NCBI GenBank assembly: GCA_947561395.2
Contig: OX387189.1
Location: 19,530,329-19,594,328, forward strand
DNA: 64,000 nt
From: Buxus sempervirens
Lineage: Eukaryota; Streptophyta; Magnoliopsida; Buxales; Buxaceae
Direction of reading: 5' to 3'
Below are positions 17,556-62,452 of the stretch, one piece after another. The notes under the pieces were generated by a model. It made no database searches. It was not told the DNA's origin and saw nothing but the letters and a program-made list of their open reading frames with translations. Position 1 is the stretch's first letter, and each line of letters starts with the position of its first letter. Made by a program: the position numbers and the translations under genes.

Positions 17556-17902
17556 CAGTGTTTACAGTTGGATATTTTTGAAGTAGCGACATGTTTCACG
17601 ACTGAAATATCACTTTACTACATCTTTGGCGACATGCTGATGCATTTCATTGAAACGCTTTTTTTTTTTTTTTTTTTGAACTTTTTTTCTCGCATACGTG
17701 CGACCAAATCTCCACCATTTGCTACCAAATCTCTCCTAAACCTCTTCCAATCTCAAGATTTTGGTTGTAGGACCACATTACACACGATTTGGAGTGGCAT
17801 TTGGTGTCCTAAGAGAACACGTTTGATACTAAAGAAGGAAAAACGTATATTTCTTCAACTTTAAAGCCTTAAAGTTAATAGAATAAGGTATATAATGTAG
17901 GA

Positions 17903-17925
17903 ACACCCGATCTATCGATGGGTGT
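17903..17925. repeat. Conserved imperfect palindrome in hAT leader
   Basis: ACACCCGATCTATCGATGGG then TGT forms an inverted repeat (ACACCC against GGGTGT with partly pairing centre). The same motif occurs twice in copy B at 57429-57453 and 57581-57605, with flanks of copy B's second motif also conserved. Confidence 0.75.
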
Positions 17926-18670
17926 CGTCACCTATAATTAATTTTTATGAAAATTAATTTTTTTTAATTATTTGTCACAAAAATAGATTAAAAATAAAGA
18001 AAAATGTATAAAAACGCAACAAATAATGTTATAAATTAGTAAAAATTACTATGAATTATAATGATAATATCATGTTTTATTTTGTTATTATATTTGTATG
18101 CTTTACAGAGTTCTAAATTACTTTGTATATGTTGATATATAACTATTTAAATAATATAAATACTATATGCACAATGAAAAATTCGAAACCTAACAAAAAA
18201 TAATGAAAATTTGATTTAAAAAAAATAGTTACAATTCGACAATTATTTAATTATATAATATTATACAATAAAAGTGTGATGAAAAATAAAGAAATTAATA
18301 TAAATTTATTTATAAATCTGTAAAAATATATAAAAATGACAATATATTGCAATAAAAATTATAAAAACTTGAGGGCATGAAATTTATGACTATATGTTTT
18401 TTTATTAACAATATAATTAAATAAAATATTAAAAATGTAAAAAAATTTTAAAAATTACAAAAAAATTTGTTCAATCAATTGAAATAAGTTATGAACTATC
18501 TATAAATTATTTGGTATTTAAAAGTTTAAAAAATATGAAATTATGTTTACAATGTCTTACTAATTTGTTTTGTAATGTATCTAATTAAGCTATTGCTAGT
18601 ATTTTATTTGTTTGTTGTGCAAGTCTCCATCACATTGTTTGTGATTGTTACTTCAGTGTATTGATCTGAT

Positions 18671-21600
18671 ATGGCTTCTAGTAGTGAAGATGATCAGTAA
18701 GGTCGTAGCCTAGATATTAGCTGGAACCACTGTAAGAAAGTGGATAGGGACAAAAACAAAACCAAATGCAATTACTGTGGCCAGAGATTTAAGGGTGGTG
18801 GGATCTCATGGCTAAAGCAACACTTAGCACATGACTACAAAAACGTCGTAAACTGTCCAAAAGTGCCCAAGAAGTGGAAAAGCATATGAGAGATCATCTA
18901 CAGACTGGAACGACTGGTCATCATGAGATGGTCATAGGGGATGAGATCAGGCGTAGGCTAGGGGAGTCAGTACGACCACTTGCTGGGGCTAAGGATTCCG
19001 ACGACAACATTGTCTACCTGGCTGATGTGGACACTGAGGCAGAGAAGGCCATATATCGAGCCACCATTCGAGCTTCTTTACAGTCAAAGTACGAGAGGAG
19101 GGAGAGCCAGAGATCAGGCTTTGACAGGGATAGTTACACTGAAGGTGACCATGATACTGGTGCTAAAGGTTCTGGGCATAGAGCTAAGCAGGGTTCAGAT
19201 CTCGTAAGTTAAGGTGGATACAGAATACGAGAATACCGGACTATCCTACAGAGCCCTCGTTATATCGTTATTCTAGATCGAAATAGAAGAGACTGAGGGA
19301 TGTTTGGAGTAAAGGATTACTAAGGAAGAGAATGGGAAAGTACATATCAAAATTCTTCATCTTCAATCACATCCTAGCAAATGCAGCGACATCTCCTTAC
19401 TTCATTAAATTATCAACACTATTCAGGAGGTGAGCCCAGGAGTCCAACCCCTACACCCCGTGAGATTATGGGCAAATATCTAGATGATGAGAAAAGGGAG
19501 ATAAGAGATTTTATTGCCTCCCTACGACCACATTGGGAGAAGTTTGGGGTGAGTATCATGTGTGATGGTTGGACCAGTCCTAGACTGTCCATCATCAACT
19601 TCATGGTATACTGTAGAGGCAATGCAGTATTCTTGAAGTAGGTTGACGCATCTAATAAAATCAAGGATGCGAATTATATAGCAAAACCACTTGAGAGTGT
19701 CATAGCTGAGGTCAGTGTACAGCACGTGGTTCAAATTGTCACAGACAACGGTAGTAACTTCAAGAAGACCAGCCTAAAGCTACAGTAGAAGTATGGTTTA
19801 TATCAGATGCCGTGTACAGCTCATTGCATCGACTTGATGTTCGAGTCAATTTCACAGAGGAGTAGTGTAGTCATTGTTTTACGAGATGAATGAGCCTTGA
19901 CGACATTTGTCTACAACCACAACTTTGTACTGGAAAAGATAAAAAAGATATGTGATGTAGACATAGTCCGGCCGGGTATTACTAGATTCCACACGAACTA
20001 CATTGCCTTGGAGATCTTTTGAAGCACTTGCAAGGATTGAGTACACTCTTCACTAGTGTTGATTGGTCTAATTGCTCTCATAGCAGCACGAAGGCGGGCA
20101 GGAGAGTCGAGGAAATTGTATTATCTAGTGCATTTTGGGATAGAGTCTGAGACCTTATGGGATATTTGGAGCCTATATAGCGTGTATTGTGGATGGTTGA
20201 TACGGATGCCTATCCCATGATAGGGTCCACATATGACTGTACGAGAGTCATGAAGACCTCGATAAAGGTTGCAGCACCTCAATCATACAAATGAGTGCAG
20301 AATATTGTTGACGACAGATGGACCAAGACTTCGGAACATCCCTTACATTTAGCTGGTAAGTATGAATATATTTATGTTATTATACTATAGTTTGTCACTT
20401 GTTATTATAATAAAATTTTCTTTTACCTATCCATACAGCATACTATCTGAACCCCAAGAATCACTATAAGAACCAGCTTGGCACGCATCCTGAATTGTGT
20501 AGCGCCGTGCATGAGGTATTTATGGAGTTGGACCTTCGTTCTAATGCGGTTAGTATGTTCAGAAATGAGGTAGGATTAGGAAAAGGATACTTGTTAAATA
20601 TAAGTCCACATTGTAATGTCATTTTATCTAAATTTTTCAATAGAATCAATACTAACATTTAATTTCAGTTTTCCCAGTTGATATTATTTAAAGATGCGAT
20701 GGGGTCATTTGAATTGACTACAGCGATTGCATCAAGGGACACGATGATGCCGTCTATATAACTTCATAACTCTTAAAGTCATAAGTCTATAACTTTATAC
20801 ACTTCTATTTTCTAATAAACTATTATTTTTTTCAAATCAAAGGTGAATGGCGGGCGATGTACGTGTACAATGCGCCTACATTGCACAAGTTAACTACTAG
20901 GGTCCTAGCTTAGACCGCCTCTTCTTCTAGGTGTGAGCGGAATTGGAGCACATTTGCTCTTATTCATACGAAGCAGAGGAACAGATTGGTGTATGAGAGA
21001 TTGCAGAAGCTCATCTTCTGCCATTATAACATGAAGCTACAGACAAAGCAACTACAAATTGAGCATCGTATACGATCATCAAGGATCCTCTGTAGGTGAT
21101 ATTTAGCAACAAGATTGACGAAGAAGATCCATTTGTAAAGTGGGTTAGATGTGCTAAGATGGACCAGCCAGATGGTAAACCTAGCCTAGTCATCGCCTAT
21201 GCATCGACAAATCTAGGCATAGATGTCAATGCTGTCATGGAGGCAGAGAGGGGTGAGGGCAGTAGAGACTCATTAGATCGATCACTTAGAGTTGTTCCTC
21301 CCTCAGTTTCAACAACCCCAACCTTATCTTCAAGCCCACATGATGATGAGTCATCTGATGATGATGATGATAGTGATGGTAATGAGTCAGATGATGATGA
21401 TGATGACGACAATAACGACGACGATGGAGGAGATGATGATGCCCAAGGTGGTGTTACTAGAGGTAGTGCCTCGGGTTTAAGTGCGTTCACTGGAGAGGCA
21501 AGGTACGATCATGCCATGCAGGACCGAGACCATGGGTTCAAGAGATACAATGATGGTAGTGGTCATAACACTAGTACGACACACATTTCAAAGGAGGGGC

Positions 21601-22073
21601 AAAGGAAAGCAGCAGCAGCATACTGGAGTGCACGACGACGAGTCCTCCATAGCTCAGAGTTTTTGATAACTAGATATTAGATCAAGTTTATCTTATGGGG
21701 ACCACTATCCACAGCAAGGCCACGGATATTATGGTTCATATTATTATCCTCAACAGCCTAGCCCAGCAGAGTCTTCAAATATCCGTAGCTATGGGTCCTA
21801 CGGATACCTATTCCTGACTTACAGCAAATGCAGACTGCTCATCCATTTAGGTTCTTTCCAGTGAACCTATATCCATATGGATAATACGCCACACCGGGTG
21901 GAGTGATGCTTGCTGGATACGGCGTTGTTACTTATCCCACCACCACCGCCTCAACCAAAGCTAGAGTCAGATCCACAGCCAGATAGCTTGTGCAGTTATT
22001 ATCTTGACTTCCCTCTCGTTGGTATTATTGGACACACGTCTCGGGAGCAATATGAGTACCATGTTAGGTTGTA
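18671..22073 (+). pseudogene. hAT transposase pseudogene A (BED finger, DUF659, dimerisation domain)
   Basis: The probable start ATG at 18671 gives MASSSEDDQ. A BED-type zinc finger follows (WNHCKKV, CNYCGQRFKGGG, WLKQHLAHDYKNV). Next comes a charged linker, then a DUF659 segment at about 19440-19840 (PREIMGKYLDDEKREIRDF, LRPHWEKFGV, MCDGWTSPRLSIINFMVYC, VQIVTDNGSNFKK). The C-terminal hAT dimerisation domain follows near 20930-21090 (CERNWSTFALIHTKQRNRL), then an acidic Asp-rich stretch (21340-21450) and a Tyr/Gln/Pro-rich tail. An intron at 20356-20438 (GGTAAG...ACAG) sits in the same codon as in copy B. Several stops and frameshifts break it, for example TAA after DDQ and TAG near 19640. 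It acts, when intact, by cutting out and reinserting the element. Confidence 0.9.
20356..20438 (+). other. Intron of hAT transposase A
   Basis: Donor CTG followed by GTAAGT, acceptor CATACAG, joining LHLA to AYYLNPKNHY. Copy B has its intron at the identical place (59736-59831). Confidence 0.8.
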
Positions 22074-56872: not shown

Positions 56873-56928
56873 TGAAATTATTAGAATTGACAATCAAGAT
56901 ATCCCTCTAAGCAATAAATTCAGATATC
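56873..56928 (+). mobile_element. RTE-type LINE, left piece
   Basis: Encodes RIDNQDIPLSNKFRY, matching the RTE segment that precedes LGSVIQ. The match continues at 61851 after a hAT insertion. The 5' truncation point lies near 56873. Confidence 0.8.
56921..56928. repeat. Left target duplication of hAT copy B (CAGATATC)
   Basis: Paired with TAGATATC at 61851-61858 (7 of 8). Removing one copy and the element restores the RTE codons for FRYLGS. Confidence 0.85.
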
Positions 56929-56961
56929 CAGTGGCGTGCCGCAAAAAAATGGATATTTTTC

Positions 56962-57174
56962 CCCCAGTGATGCGAATCGCTGGGGTAAATCGCCAGGGAT
57001 TTTTCCCTGGCGAAAAATCTCAAAATTTCATTGAAACGCAGCGACATTTTGCTGCGTTTCGACGAATTTTTTCTTTTTTTCGTTTTTTAACTCTCACGTG
57101 TGTGCCAGCACATGCGTGCGAGAGATATAAGTCAAAATGTCACTCGATTTGGGCGAGATTTCGCCCAAATCGAG
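56962..57174. repeat. Array of five hairpins at the hAT left end
   Basis: (1) 56962-56985: CCCCAGTGAT/ATCGCTGGGG, 10 bp with one wobble, 4-nt loop. (2) 56990-57013: TCGCCAGGGA/TCCCTGGCGA, 10 bp perfect, loop TTTT. (3) 57033-57060: GAAACGCAGC/GCTGCGTTTC, 10 bp perfect, 8-nt loop. (4) 57091-57124: CTCTCACG.. against ..CGTGCGAGAG, imperfect with a 2-nt bulge. (5) 57143-57174: CTCGATTTGGGCGA/TCGCCCAAATCGAG, 14 bp perfect, loop GATT. Hairpins 1 and 5 are also present in copy C (29295-29470), with changed loops; the others are decayed there. Confidence 0.93.
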
Positions 57175-57428
57175 AATCGAGCAGCAAACAGACAAAAAGG
57201 GGGGAAACGACCAAGGAGCTCAAATTTTTGGCCAAATCGACCAGATTCAACCTCGTTTTAGCGTTATTCTCATCACTCTACTTGATAGAAGTGATTTGTT
57301 TTGATTTAAAGGAGATTGAAGTGATCTTGGCAACCTCACGTTAGGTAAGATTTGGGGAAACTCGTTTTTTTTATTTTTCTTGATCTAAAGTGCATAGAAT
57401 CATTCCATTTTATGATATGTATTCGTCT

Positions 57429-57605
57429 GACACCCGATCTAGAGATCAGTGTCGGCGTTTTTTTTTTTTTGTATAAAAAAATTATTTTTTAGCAATTTTT
57501 TAGGCGAAAATTCATATAAATTCGTTTATTAATTACATAAACCTTGTATAATATTATGATAATTATGTATAATATATGGGGACACCCGATCTACAAATGG
57601 GTGTC
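57429..57605. repeat. Two copies of the GACACCCGATCT palindromic motif
   Basis: GACACCCGATCTAGAGATCA then GTGTC at 57429-57453, and GACACCCGATCTACAAATGG then GTGTC at 57581-57605 (7-bp perfect stem GACACCC/GGGTGTC). The second and its flanks correspond to the motif at 17903 in copy A. Confidence 0.85.
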
Positions 57606-58044
57606 CTCTGATTAATTTTCATAAAGATTATAATTTTTTTGAATTATTAAATCCGAAAATTGATAAATTATTCATAAATTTAATAAAAATTAGAAAAAAT
57701 AGACAATTTCTCAAACTAAATTCAAAAATTTAATTTATTTATTATAGAAAAAATTATTTTGAAGAATCGGGGTTTATATAATTTTTTTTATATTTAAATT
57801 TGTCTGTAATTATAAAAAATATTAAAATAAGGTGGAAAAAGGAAATAAAAAATCTAAAATTTAATATGTATGGTTTATAAATTATAATTAATTGGTAATG
57901 TTAGTATTCTAATTTATTATTGTTGAATGTGGATTAATAATCATAATTTTTTATTGTGCTCTATCACTGTGCAGGGGTTCGGATTCCACTGTGTAGCGGT
58001 TTTATTTTGATTTCTACCTTCTTCGTTAGCCTGTTAGAGACAGT

Positions 58045-61000
58045 ATGGCATCTGACAGTGATAGTGGAAGGAATCACCCTAGTGGCAGGAGATAAGATAT
58101 TAGTTGGGCCCATGGCACGAGATTCAAGGGAGACAAAAATAAAATCGTCTGCAATTATTGTTACCAAGTCATAAAAGGTGGTGGAGTATACGGCTGAAGC
58201 AGCATTTGGCGCACGGCTACAAGAACGTGGCCAACTGTCCTCGAGTCCTTCCAGAGGTTAAGAGGCAAATGAGAGAGCACTTACAATCAGGGAGTGCATC
58301 TAGGGAAGAGAGGAGGCACGCACAGGAGGAGGTTAAACGTAGATAGGCAAAGCCTATCCGACCCGCTATGGCTGAGGATGATGATGATGATGATACAGTG
58401 TACCCTGAGGAAATGGTGAGAGAAGCAGAGAGGGCAGCATTCAGAACCTCAATGCGAGTATCTTTGCAGTCTGGGTTTGAGAAGAGAGAGGCTGGGAGGT
58501 ACGGATTTCACAGAGGTGGTACCTCTAGAGGAGATGCAGGTGATGTTGATGCTCCTAGACATAGGGCTGGGACTGGGCCTGGGCTCACTCATTCTCAGAG
58601 CACTAGGATGCCCGAATATCCTATGGAGCCTAGTATGTTCCGTTCATCTGGTGTCAGGCAAAAGAGAGTGAGGAATATGTGGGGCGGGGGCAATGTCAGG
58701 CAAAGGATGGGGAAATTCATATCAAAATTCTTTATCTTCAATCACATTCCAGCGAATGCAGCAGCGAGCCCACATGTCAAGAATATGGTCGATGTTATCC
58801 GAGAGTCGGGTCAGGGAGTCTTGCCTCCTACGCCTCGGGAGATTATGGGTACGTACTTGGACGAGGAAGAGGCAGAGATAAAAGACTTTATTACATCCTT
58901 ACGACCCCATTGGCAACAGTTTGGAGTTACCATCATGTGTGATGGATGGACAGGTCCTACTAAACTGTCCATCAACAATTTCATGGTGTATTGTAGAGGC
59001 AGGGAACTGTTCTTGAGATCTATTGACGCATCACACAATATCAAGGATGCGCCCTATATTGAAGGCCCATTAGAGAGCGTGATACAAGAGGTTGGCCCTG
59101 AGCACGTGGTTCAAATTGTGACAGATAGTGGCAGTGCATTCAAGAAAGCCGGCCAGACATTAGAGCAGCAGTATAACCTCTATTAGGCGTTGTGTACCAC
59201 ACATTGCATCGACTTGATACTAGAGGCGATTGGCAAGAGGAACAATGTACTTATCACATTGAGGGATGCACGAGCGCTCACCACATTTATGTACAACCAC
59301 AATTATGTACTTGCGAAATGAGAGAGAGATGTGGTGGGAACATAGTTCGGCCGGGGATTACCAGATTCGGCACGAACTATATTGCATTGGAGAGTATTTT
59401 GAGGCACAGGCAGGGATTGAGATCTCTCTTTACCAGTGAGGAATGGACGAGTTGTAGTCAGAGTCGTATAGATATGGGGAGGAGAGTAGAGGATATTATT
59501 TTGTCCAGCAGGTTTTGGGAAAAAGTGCAAGAGTTGATTGATGAACTGGAGCCTATATACCGTGTACTAAGGATAGTTAACATAGATACCTATCACACGG
59601 TAGGATCTATATATTAGTATATGACGATGATGAAATCTCAGATTAAGGCCGCATCACCCTCATCGTACATCTGGGTATACAACATTATTAATAATAGATG
59701 GTTCAAGTCGCTAACTCATCCTCTGCATTCAACAGGTATAATTATATTTCTATTTGAATCTTTTATGTTCAATAACGTTTATAATTATATTTTATTTGTA
59801 CTAATGTTTTTTCTTGTAATCGTCAATGTAGCATATTATTTGAATCCTAAGTATCATTATAAGGATAACCTTGGCACACGCACCGACCTCTGCGCTTCAG
59901 TCCCCCAGGTCTTCATGAAGTTGGACCCCCATTCAGATGTAATTGGGGAATTTGGAAATGAGGTAAGGCCGTAGTTCTTAACTTAACTTATGCATATTAG
60001 TTCTTCTTAATAGTTATACTAAATACTAACCCTTTCAAATTCCACTACCAGCTAATACTATTTAAAGATGTGATGGGATCGTTCAAATCGACTACGACGA
60101 TTGCATCGAGGACGACGATGATGCCATGTAAGTGACAAGAGATTGTGAATATTAATTATTAAATAATTTTTCTCTATTATAATTTCTAAATAAATGTTAA
60201 TATTTTCTATTTGTAAATCTAGGTGAATGGTAGGCGATGTATGGGACAGGTGCCCCCATATTAAGGAAGCTAGCATGTCGCATATTGGCTCAAACAGCAT
60301 CTTCCTCTGCTTGTGAGCGCAATTGGAGTACGTTTGCACTCATACACACGAAGCAGAGGAACCAGCTAGCTTATCAAAGGTTGCAGAATTGGTCTTCTAT
60401 CATTACAACATGAGGCTAAAGACGAGGCAGTTAGAGATAGAGCAGCGCACCGCGATAGTGAAGGATCCTTTGGACGTGTTATTCAGTAATGAAGTTGATG
60501 AGGAGGATCCATTCACAGAGTGGGTTAGATGTGTTAAGATGGATGAGCCTAATTGTCGTCATAGCCCAGTTATTGCACACACTGCAGCAGAGATGGGCAT
60601 CGATATAGATGCAGCTATGGAGAAGGAAATGGGGGAGGGCAACGGAGACTCACTAGATAGATCCGTGAGAGTTGTTCCTCCCTCCATTACTGCGACGACA
60701 TCAGCCCCAGTCCCAGCCTCAGCCCATGGACATGTTGAGTCATCATCATCAGAGGAGGAGGATACAAATGAGGAAGATGAGTCCAGATCATTAGATGATG
60801 ATGACGGAGATGGTGGTACTAGTGGTACTCATCATGGTGTTGGCACCAGTGGCCCGGGGTTGACCCCTTTTACTAGAGAGGCGGCTTTCCATCATGCCAC
60901 ACAGGACACTAACCACGGGTTTAGAGGTCATGATTAAAGTGAGGCACGTTCCTATCAAAGGAGGAAAGGCAAAGAAAGACAGCATATAGGGATGTACGAT

Positions 61001-61495
61001 GATTCGTTCTCCATAGCACAAAGTTTCGGATCTTTAGATGTTGGAGGATCATCGAGTTCTTATGGAGAGTAGTATCCACCACAGCTGAGTCAAGGACACT
61101 ATCCATTCTACTATCCTCAGCAGTTTGGGCCAGCAAATCCACTAGATAATAGTAGTTACGGTACATCATACAGATATCCTGGAGCACACATGCAGACATC
61201 TGATCCAATTGGGATCTTTCCAATGAGCCCATATCCATACAGTTATTATGCTCAGCCTGTACCTACTGGTTCTCCTACATCGTCTCCTCCGTCACCACCA
61301 CAGTCAAAGCCAGATCGGTGCTACTATTATAATGATTTCCCTCCAGTTGGTATCATGGCACACATGACACAAGAGTATGAGTAGCATGTCCGTTCATATC
61401 AGAGAGAGTATAGATTTCGGATGGGATGGAAGCGTTACTGCCACTTTATTGGCAAGAGACCAGGGTTTGAACCGCGTCATTCATTTCATTACTGA
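58045..61495 (+). pseudogene. hAT transposase pseudogene B (BED finger, DUF659, dimerisation domain, Tyr/Pro-rich tail)
   Basis: ATG at 58045 gives MASDSDSGRNHPSGR; the BED finger follows (DISWAHGTRFKGDKNK, CNYCYQVIKGGG, then after a frameshift LKQHLAHGYKNVANCP). The open 58368-59185 frame (272 codons) contains FISKFFIFNHIPANAA, TPREIMGTYLDEEEAEIKDF, LRPHWQQFGV, MCDGWTGPTKLSINNFMVYC and VQIVTDSGSAFKKAG (DUF659/RNase-H-like catalytic core). After a TAG come HCIDL and ITRFGTNYIAL. The dimerisation domain is at about 60310-60420 (CERNWSTFALIHTKQRNQL). An acidic stretch follows, then a Tyr/Pro/Gln-rich tail ending GWKRYCHFIGKRPGFEPRHS. Introns lie at 59736-59831 and near 59963-60051 and 60128-60221. 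At least five stops or shifts; inactive. Confidence 0.92.
59736..59831 (+). other. Intron of hAT transposase B, shared with copy A
   Basis: Donor AACAG followed by GTATAA, acceptor AATGTAG, joining HPLHST to AYYLNPKYHY. Same codon as the copy A intron at 20356-20438. Confidence 0.82.
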
Positions 61496-61778
61496 TTTGA
61501 CAGTATGATTGTATGTTTTTTACTCTATATATTGTTATTTCAGTTTAATTTAAAATTTGGATCCTATTTGTCACTTTGATTTATGCACAACGCACAGCAT
61601 CACCCCGATCATTAGTCATTACATTTACATGTCACATTGCGTTTGCATGATTTTTTGAAGTATATAACTGCTACTTGTAGTAATTTAAGTACAATTATAC
61701 ATGCAAATGCAATTATTTTACATATTATTGTTGAAAGCATTCATTTTCGGACAAAAAAAAGGAAAAAAAATTTCGCTC

Positions 61779-61840
61779 GATTCACTGGAAATTCATTTTT
61801 CCAATGAATCAACGACATTTCGGCGGCGTGCCACCGAAAT
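61779..61840. repeat. Two hairpins at the hAT right end
   Basis: 61779-61810: GATTCACTGGAAA/TTTCCAATGAATC, 13 bp with one wobble, 6-nt loop. 61817-61840: ATTTCGGCGGC/GCCACCGAAAT, 11 bp with one wobble, 2-nt loop. Confidence 0.9.
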
Positions 61841-61850
61841 TGAGAACCTT

Positions 61851-62452
61851 TAGATATCTTGGATCAGTGATACAAAAAAATGGAGAAATTGATGAAGATG
61901 TCACACATAGGATTAGAGCTGGTTGGCTTAAGTAAACAGGTGCTTCTAGGGTACTGCACGATAAGCATGTTCCACTTAAATTAAAGAGTAAGTTCTATTA
62001 AACAGCAATTAGACCAGCTACTTTGTATGGTATAAAATATAGGGCAACAAAGAAACAACACGTTCAAAATATGAGTGTTACTGAGATGAGGATGCCAAGA
62101 TGGACATGTGGCAAAATTAGAAAAAATAAAGTAAGAAATGAATATATTCTGAAGAGGTTAGGAATAGCATGTATTAGGGATAAAATTGAGGAAATTAAGT
62201 CAAGGTAGTTCAGACATGTAAAGCGAAGACCTCAAGATGCACCTGCAAGAAGGTGTGTGGGATGCATATGAAGAACCTAAGAGATCAAGAGGAAGACCTA
62301 AAAAGTCATGGATGGAGTTAATAAGACATGACTTAGATAAATATAAATTAATTGAAGATATAATATTTGATAGAACGAGGTGGAGAGACAAGATTTGTGT
62401 TGGCAACCCTACTTCAATGGGAACTAACTTGTGTTATGATGATGATGATAAA
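61851..62452 (+). mobile_element. RTE-type LINE, right piece with (TGA)n tail
   Basis: [85 protein letters not shown] and RRPQDAPARRC closely follow the plant RTE C-terminal region. Only a few stops and shifts break it, so this is the best preserved RTE here. It ends GTGTTGGCAACCC...GTTATGATGATGATGATAAA. It continues the piece at 56873-56928. Confidence 0.92.

Follow-up and report, generated by a model that had tools for sequence, protein, structure and literature searches.

Why does a decayed transposon carry a chain of inverted repeats at its end, and did their folding matter or only their letters? The question is raised by a window of 64,000 nucleotides of Buxus sempervirens DNA (the window being the whole stretch analyzed), in which an earlier reading, made from the sequence alone, had placed five successive inverted repeats at 56962 to 57174. 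All five were present at these positions, and they are listed below with the element that carries them; where given, the majority sequence is that of the 61 copies of the 5' end described further on.

56922..56928, no strand: left target-site duplication, 7 bases (AGATATC) where hAT elements usually have 8
56929..61851, transposase reads on the plus strand: near full-length decayed hAT element, 85% identical in 5018 bases aligned with copy L019
56933..56942, no strand: remnant of the terminal palindrome H0, right half only, from comparison with H0-keeping copies
56962..56985, no strand: H1, 10 pairs including one G-T, loop of 4; majority-sequence stem of 13 bp
56990..57013, no strand: H2, 10 bp perfect, loop of 4; also 10 in the majority sequence
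57032..57061, no strand: H3, 13 pairs, central ten perfect, two wobbles; majority-sequence arms of 22 bp
57091..57124, no strand: H4, imperfect, core of 10 pairs; 13 pairs including one T-G in the majority sequence
57143..57174, no strand: H5, 14 bp perfect, loop of 4; majority-sequence arms of 20 bp
61779..61810, no strand: 3'-end hairpin R2, from comparison of 3' ends
61813..61842, no strand: 3'-end palindrome R3, partly decayed, from comparison of 3' ends
61852..61858, no strand: right target-site duplication AGATATC, from the alignment with copy L019
29256..29652, plus strand: copy C, the 5' end of another copy, 78% identity to the 5' reference

The hairpin chain and its host element

Folded as single-stranded DNA, positions 56950 to 57180 reached -63.4 kcal/mol, compared with -28.2 ± 3.5 kcal/mol in 200 dinucleotide shuffles (z = -10.2), none of which folded as well. 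Three inverted repeats with perfect 10-bp arms and a loop of at most 10 were found within the 213 bp of the chain, and none in any of 300 shuffles. The whole 64 kb contained nine such repeats, four of them with at least 4 G/C per arm, and three of these four lay inside the chain.

The assignment of the chain to the end of a hAT transposon, also made in the sequence-only reading, was borne out by DUF659, a BED finger and the target-site duplication. DUF659 (PF04937), a domain of the hAT catalytic region, was found in a frame fragment of the window copy (E = 7.5e-33; L009:1776-2615, corresponding to window 58347-59186) and in copy L021 (E = 2.5e-34), and the BED zinc finger (PF02892) was found in copy L019 (E = 5.8e-7). 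For its part, a Pfam search of a subset of the frame fragments from broken copies gave no match to the C-terminal dimerization domain. Copy L015 is flanked on both sides by the 8-bp duplication GGAAAGAG. Element ends were taken from alignments; an automatic scan for a mirror-image 3' tip gave none in the 20 long copies, because the 3' tip differs (CCTTG).

Further copies were sought in the 676-Mb genome to which the window belongs. The search with the 5' end rendered at least 65 matches from the best 40 of 113 candidates, and that with copy C rendered at least 55 from the best 40 of 338; these counts are lower bounds, since only part of the candidates was scored. In the majority sequence of 61 5' ends, the five hairpins were better paired than in the window copy, and some copies kept a sixth palindrome, H0, which has arms of 16 and adjoins the terminal repeat on its inner side. 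The reference layout comprised 81 copies and 94 stem pairs. Hairpins were present in both end regions: the majority sequence of the 3' end (33 copies) contained a 14-bp hairpin, a bulged one of about 15 bp and a short one, and the 3'-end palindromes R1 and R3 appeared by eye to be fuller in some copies only. Copy C retained H1 and H5, as had been claimed for it; diverged versions of H3 and H4 could also be recognized by eye, H2 lacked its 3' arm, and the best fold (z = -4.9) used partly different pairings in the H1-H2 stretch.

The earlier view that the stems are unrelated in sequence did not hold for H3 and H5, which have a common core, CGAAATTTCG, in the majority sequence. This core was also observed in the 3' end and beside H0. 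When up to one mismatch was allowed, it lay no more than about 330 bases from the 5' tip or 130 bases from the 3' tip in all five long copies scanned, and it was not found in the interior of any of the five.

Pairing under change of letters

The strongest evidence for kept pairing is provided by a sister family, one copy of which lies in the window.

17556..21877, plus strand: sister-family copy, with the 5' tip CAGTGTTT at 17556 and a coding match at 19227-21877 (66% to L019)

The family was sampled from the best 40 of 1025 candidates for the coding part and the best 40 of 91 for the 5' end. Eighteen 5' stretches were fetched and 12 were aligned, the sister copy of the window being left out; of the six unaligned stretches, two had no match to the end of the window copy, two matched it partially, and two matching ones were omitted by choice. 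The plurality sequence of the 12 copies contained H1, H3 and H5, arranged as in the main family. Compared with the main family, 41 of the 54 pairs in these three hairpins were unchanged, nine were altered on both sides yet paired, three were G-T, and one, in H1, was broken. With the GGCTAGCG variant, an H1 left arm seen in single copies (L136, L137, L145 and L148), the count came to 10 double changes still paired, three G-T pairs and no broken pair. When arms were exchanged between the two families, 3 to 5 pairs were lost per hairpin. With a loose pattern, 7 of the 12 sister copies were positive for H1, 8 for H3 and 10 for H5. Thus, two related families in one genome retained the pairing despite letter changes, and therefore the folding itself probably mattered while the element was active.

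Around H1 of the sister family, GCTAGC was seen by eye to be repeated (L136 and L142-L149, first ~60 bases), so that two pairings are available, one forming an inner hairpin and the other an outer hairpin of up to 13 bp.

Within the main family, covariation was moderate. At the copy level, with 13 MITE-like rows masked in H3-H5, 105 paired double changes were counted. The columns alone predicted 76.4. Re-dealt partners gave 50.7 ± 6.8, a control that overstates the excess because the two sides of a true pair have their CpG context in common. H2 and H3 exceeded this control (10 and 9 of 1000 re-dealt sets as high, respectively) and H5 did so weakly (70 of 1000), whereas H0, H1 and H4 showed no excess of paired double changes over re-dealt partners. 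The unbiased pair screen was weak: among 39060 column pairs screened in a tree-aware manner, against a null that does not preserve column rates, the top one was an H5 stem pair with an E value of 0.8 (1.47 for the top H5 stem pair with MITE rows masked), and no other column pair came near it. Arms were also swapped between subfamilies, in permutations whose statistic still contains shared ancestry. Own arms of the H3 base, of which several distinct complementary versions exist among the subfamilies, paired at 38 of 45 positions compared with a mean of 23.6 after swapping (9 of 100000 permutations as good; the 9 of 13 subfamilies having both arms). Similarly, own arms of the H4 base paired at 39 of 55 positions compared with 28.7 (10 of 100000 as good; 11 of 13 subfamilies).

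The sequence-only reading had suggested selection for pairing, and it had named the lack of pairings in other copies, or of an excess of paired changes, as the adverse outcome. That outcome was not obtained, and both the compensatory arms of the sister family and the arm-swap permutations favor constraint on pairing; the support from within the family is limited, however, to the moderate covariation described, with three palindromes in which the excess was missing.

Loss of hairpins by deletion and in a MITE

The centers of the palindromes are deletion hot spots. Among 68 copies (the 81 of the layout minus 13 MITE-like rows), deletions of at least 6 bp over the center were found in 55 for H0, 27 for H4, 22 for H3, 12 for H5, 8 for H1 and 5 for H2, compared with 0 to 7 for 11 downstream control centers in the same copies. 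H0 was deleted more often than H3 and H5, which are longer, and it was cut differently in nearly every copy. Both anchors were present in 54 non-MITE copies; 5 of these contained the full H0 by eye, and the interval from the terminal repeat to H1 took 25 lengths among the 54 (L010-L088 and copy C).

Frequent rearrangement at palindrome centers would be in agreement with maintenance of the pairing by mutation instead of selection, template switching or repair perfecting the palindromes arm by arm. The clade specificity of the complementary arms points the same way, as does the number of private double changes, 34 compared with 17.8 expected. However, 21 of these 34 (62%) were complementary, hardly above the 58% expected, and the palindromes of resident copies are chiefly lost by deletion. 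We consider mutational maintenance quite unlikely, and arm-to-arm copying in resident copies was rejected for the near lack of enrichment in complementarity.

A MITE family of about 300 bp carries the tips, H1, H2 and the 3' palindromes as in the hAT element (L109 88-377 and L110 83-377), without H3-H5 and without the gene. The best 40 of 914 candidates were scored, and 31 copies were examined: 17 were flanked by 8-bp duplications that differed in no more than one base, the match was worse in 7, and the other 7 had no recognizable tip pair. H3-H5 are therefore dispensable in cis for mobility. The MITE amounts to a natural deletion test, in which a part for mobility (H1-H2 and the tips) is separated from a part of gene-bearing copies only (H3-H5). 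Three of the 20 long copies (L010, L014 and L024) looked internally deleted; together with the MITEs, these copies indicate that gap repair, or something similar, could still proceed.

Possible roles of the hairpins

The reading that we prefer, and hold tentatively, is that the palindromic ends worked as DNA hairpins, H1-H2 and the tips in recognition and H3-H5 in gene-bearing copies, perhaps on repair. The chain would be the 5' terminal module of an element that has an array of palindromes at either end, with the capacity to form hairpins as DNA. The BED-finger transposase would use H1, H2 and the terminal palindromes for recognition and synapsis. H3-H5 would matter to gene-bearing copies only, at the DNA level, and most likely by hindering the copying of the element in gap repair after excision, as has been proposed for the hAT element Tam3. 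Transposase-binding sites, and a barrier that shapes the transposition complex, had been among the roles suggested in the earlier reading, and either may apply. The biochemistry of these steps (binding, extrusion and effects on repair) is a prediction from sequence. A fuller version, which we regard as unlikely, would have a two-part end with portable H1, H2 and tips and with H3-H5 as a barrier, confined to gene-bearing copies, that stops post-excision repair early and limits defective derivatives, the pairing being kept in two or more families whatever the letters.

To our knowledge, the case for a function of hairpins at transposon ends has rested mainly on Tam3, a hAT element of Antirrhinum, whose ends reportedly form hairpins that arrest gap repair, as Yamashita et al. 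are said to have found in 1999. Both are hAT elements with several hairpins in the two end regions. Compared with Tam3 by description only, the present palindromes are longer and nearly perfect, and they come with a sister family that has compensatory arms. Tam3 copies are reportedly uniform in structure, whereas those found here are not, many being defective and a MITE being present. The sister family and the MITE together make the barrier idea directly testable. Among the papers listed in searches of an open-literature library, none dealt in its title or abstract opening with chained palindromes at hAT ends.

Alternatively, the palindromes may be only inverted transposase-binding sites, that is, subterminal repeats of the Hermes kind, with folding as a by-product. 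Hermes has short AAGT subterminal repeats near its tips, one pair of which is quasi-palindromic and is bound by BED domains (PMC10368747), and the element studied here likewise encodes a BED finger (L019). The restriction of the common core to the ends of the five long copies is in accordance with binding sites, as are H1 and H2, which are nearly invariant in letters across subfamilies and are retained in the MITE. Binding sites should conserve letters, however, and the arms of H3, H4 and H5 changed on both sides and still paired, which argues against binding sites alone. Stems of 20 to 22 bp are also longer than one site, and the arms here, of 10 to 22 bp and paired as letters change, differ from the short AAGT repeats of Hermes. 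Sequence-only binding sites, which appear somewhat unlikely to us, rank first among the rivals to the DNA-hairpin reading, followed by mutational maintenance and then by leader RNA.

Structured leader RNA or small-RNA precursors had also been proposed in the earlier reading. The hairpins do precede both the coding part, which is on the same strand, and the putative splice donor at 57344, and all three one-sided changes in the sister family were G-T. The table of subfamily consensus sequences contained 91 G-T and 52 A-C cells, although flanking pairs are part of it and the same inherited state is scored more than once, so that its cells are not independent. An RNA stem should tolerate G-U above A-C on the sense strand, and this was not observed in the tree-based counts: changes from the paired state to G-T and to A-C numbered 92.4 and 98.7, respectively, on internal branches and 211 and 220 on terminal branches. 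Among private changes, the values were 138 and 121. With changes symmetric between strands, leader RNA is without support and was rejected; hairpins occur at the 3' end too, Rfam rendered sub-threshold matches only, and no tRNA was found in the window. Small RNAs from the 5' end of Tam3 repress this element (PMC12449043), which would favor a role as RNA, and the regulatory target in both cases would be the 5' end region, with its transposase-binding motifs, of a hAT element in a plant. However, the Tam3 small RNAs come from Stabiliser loci, that is, from rearranged or inverted whole elements and not from short native hairpins (PMC12449043). We regard a function of the hairpins as RNA as distinctly improbable.

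A short inverted repeat, ACACCCGATC...GGGTGT, was observed twice in the element behind the putative splice donor (window 57429-57453 and 57580-57606). It also occurs in the sister copy (17903-17925) and in the majority sequence, and by eye it constitutes a conserved further hairpin.
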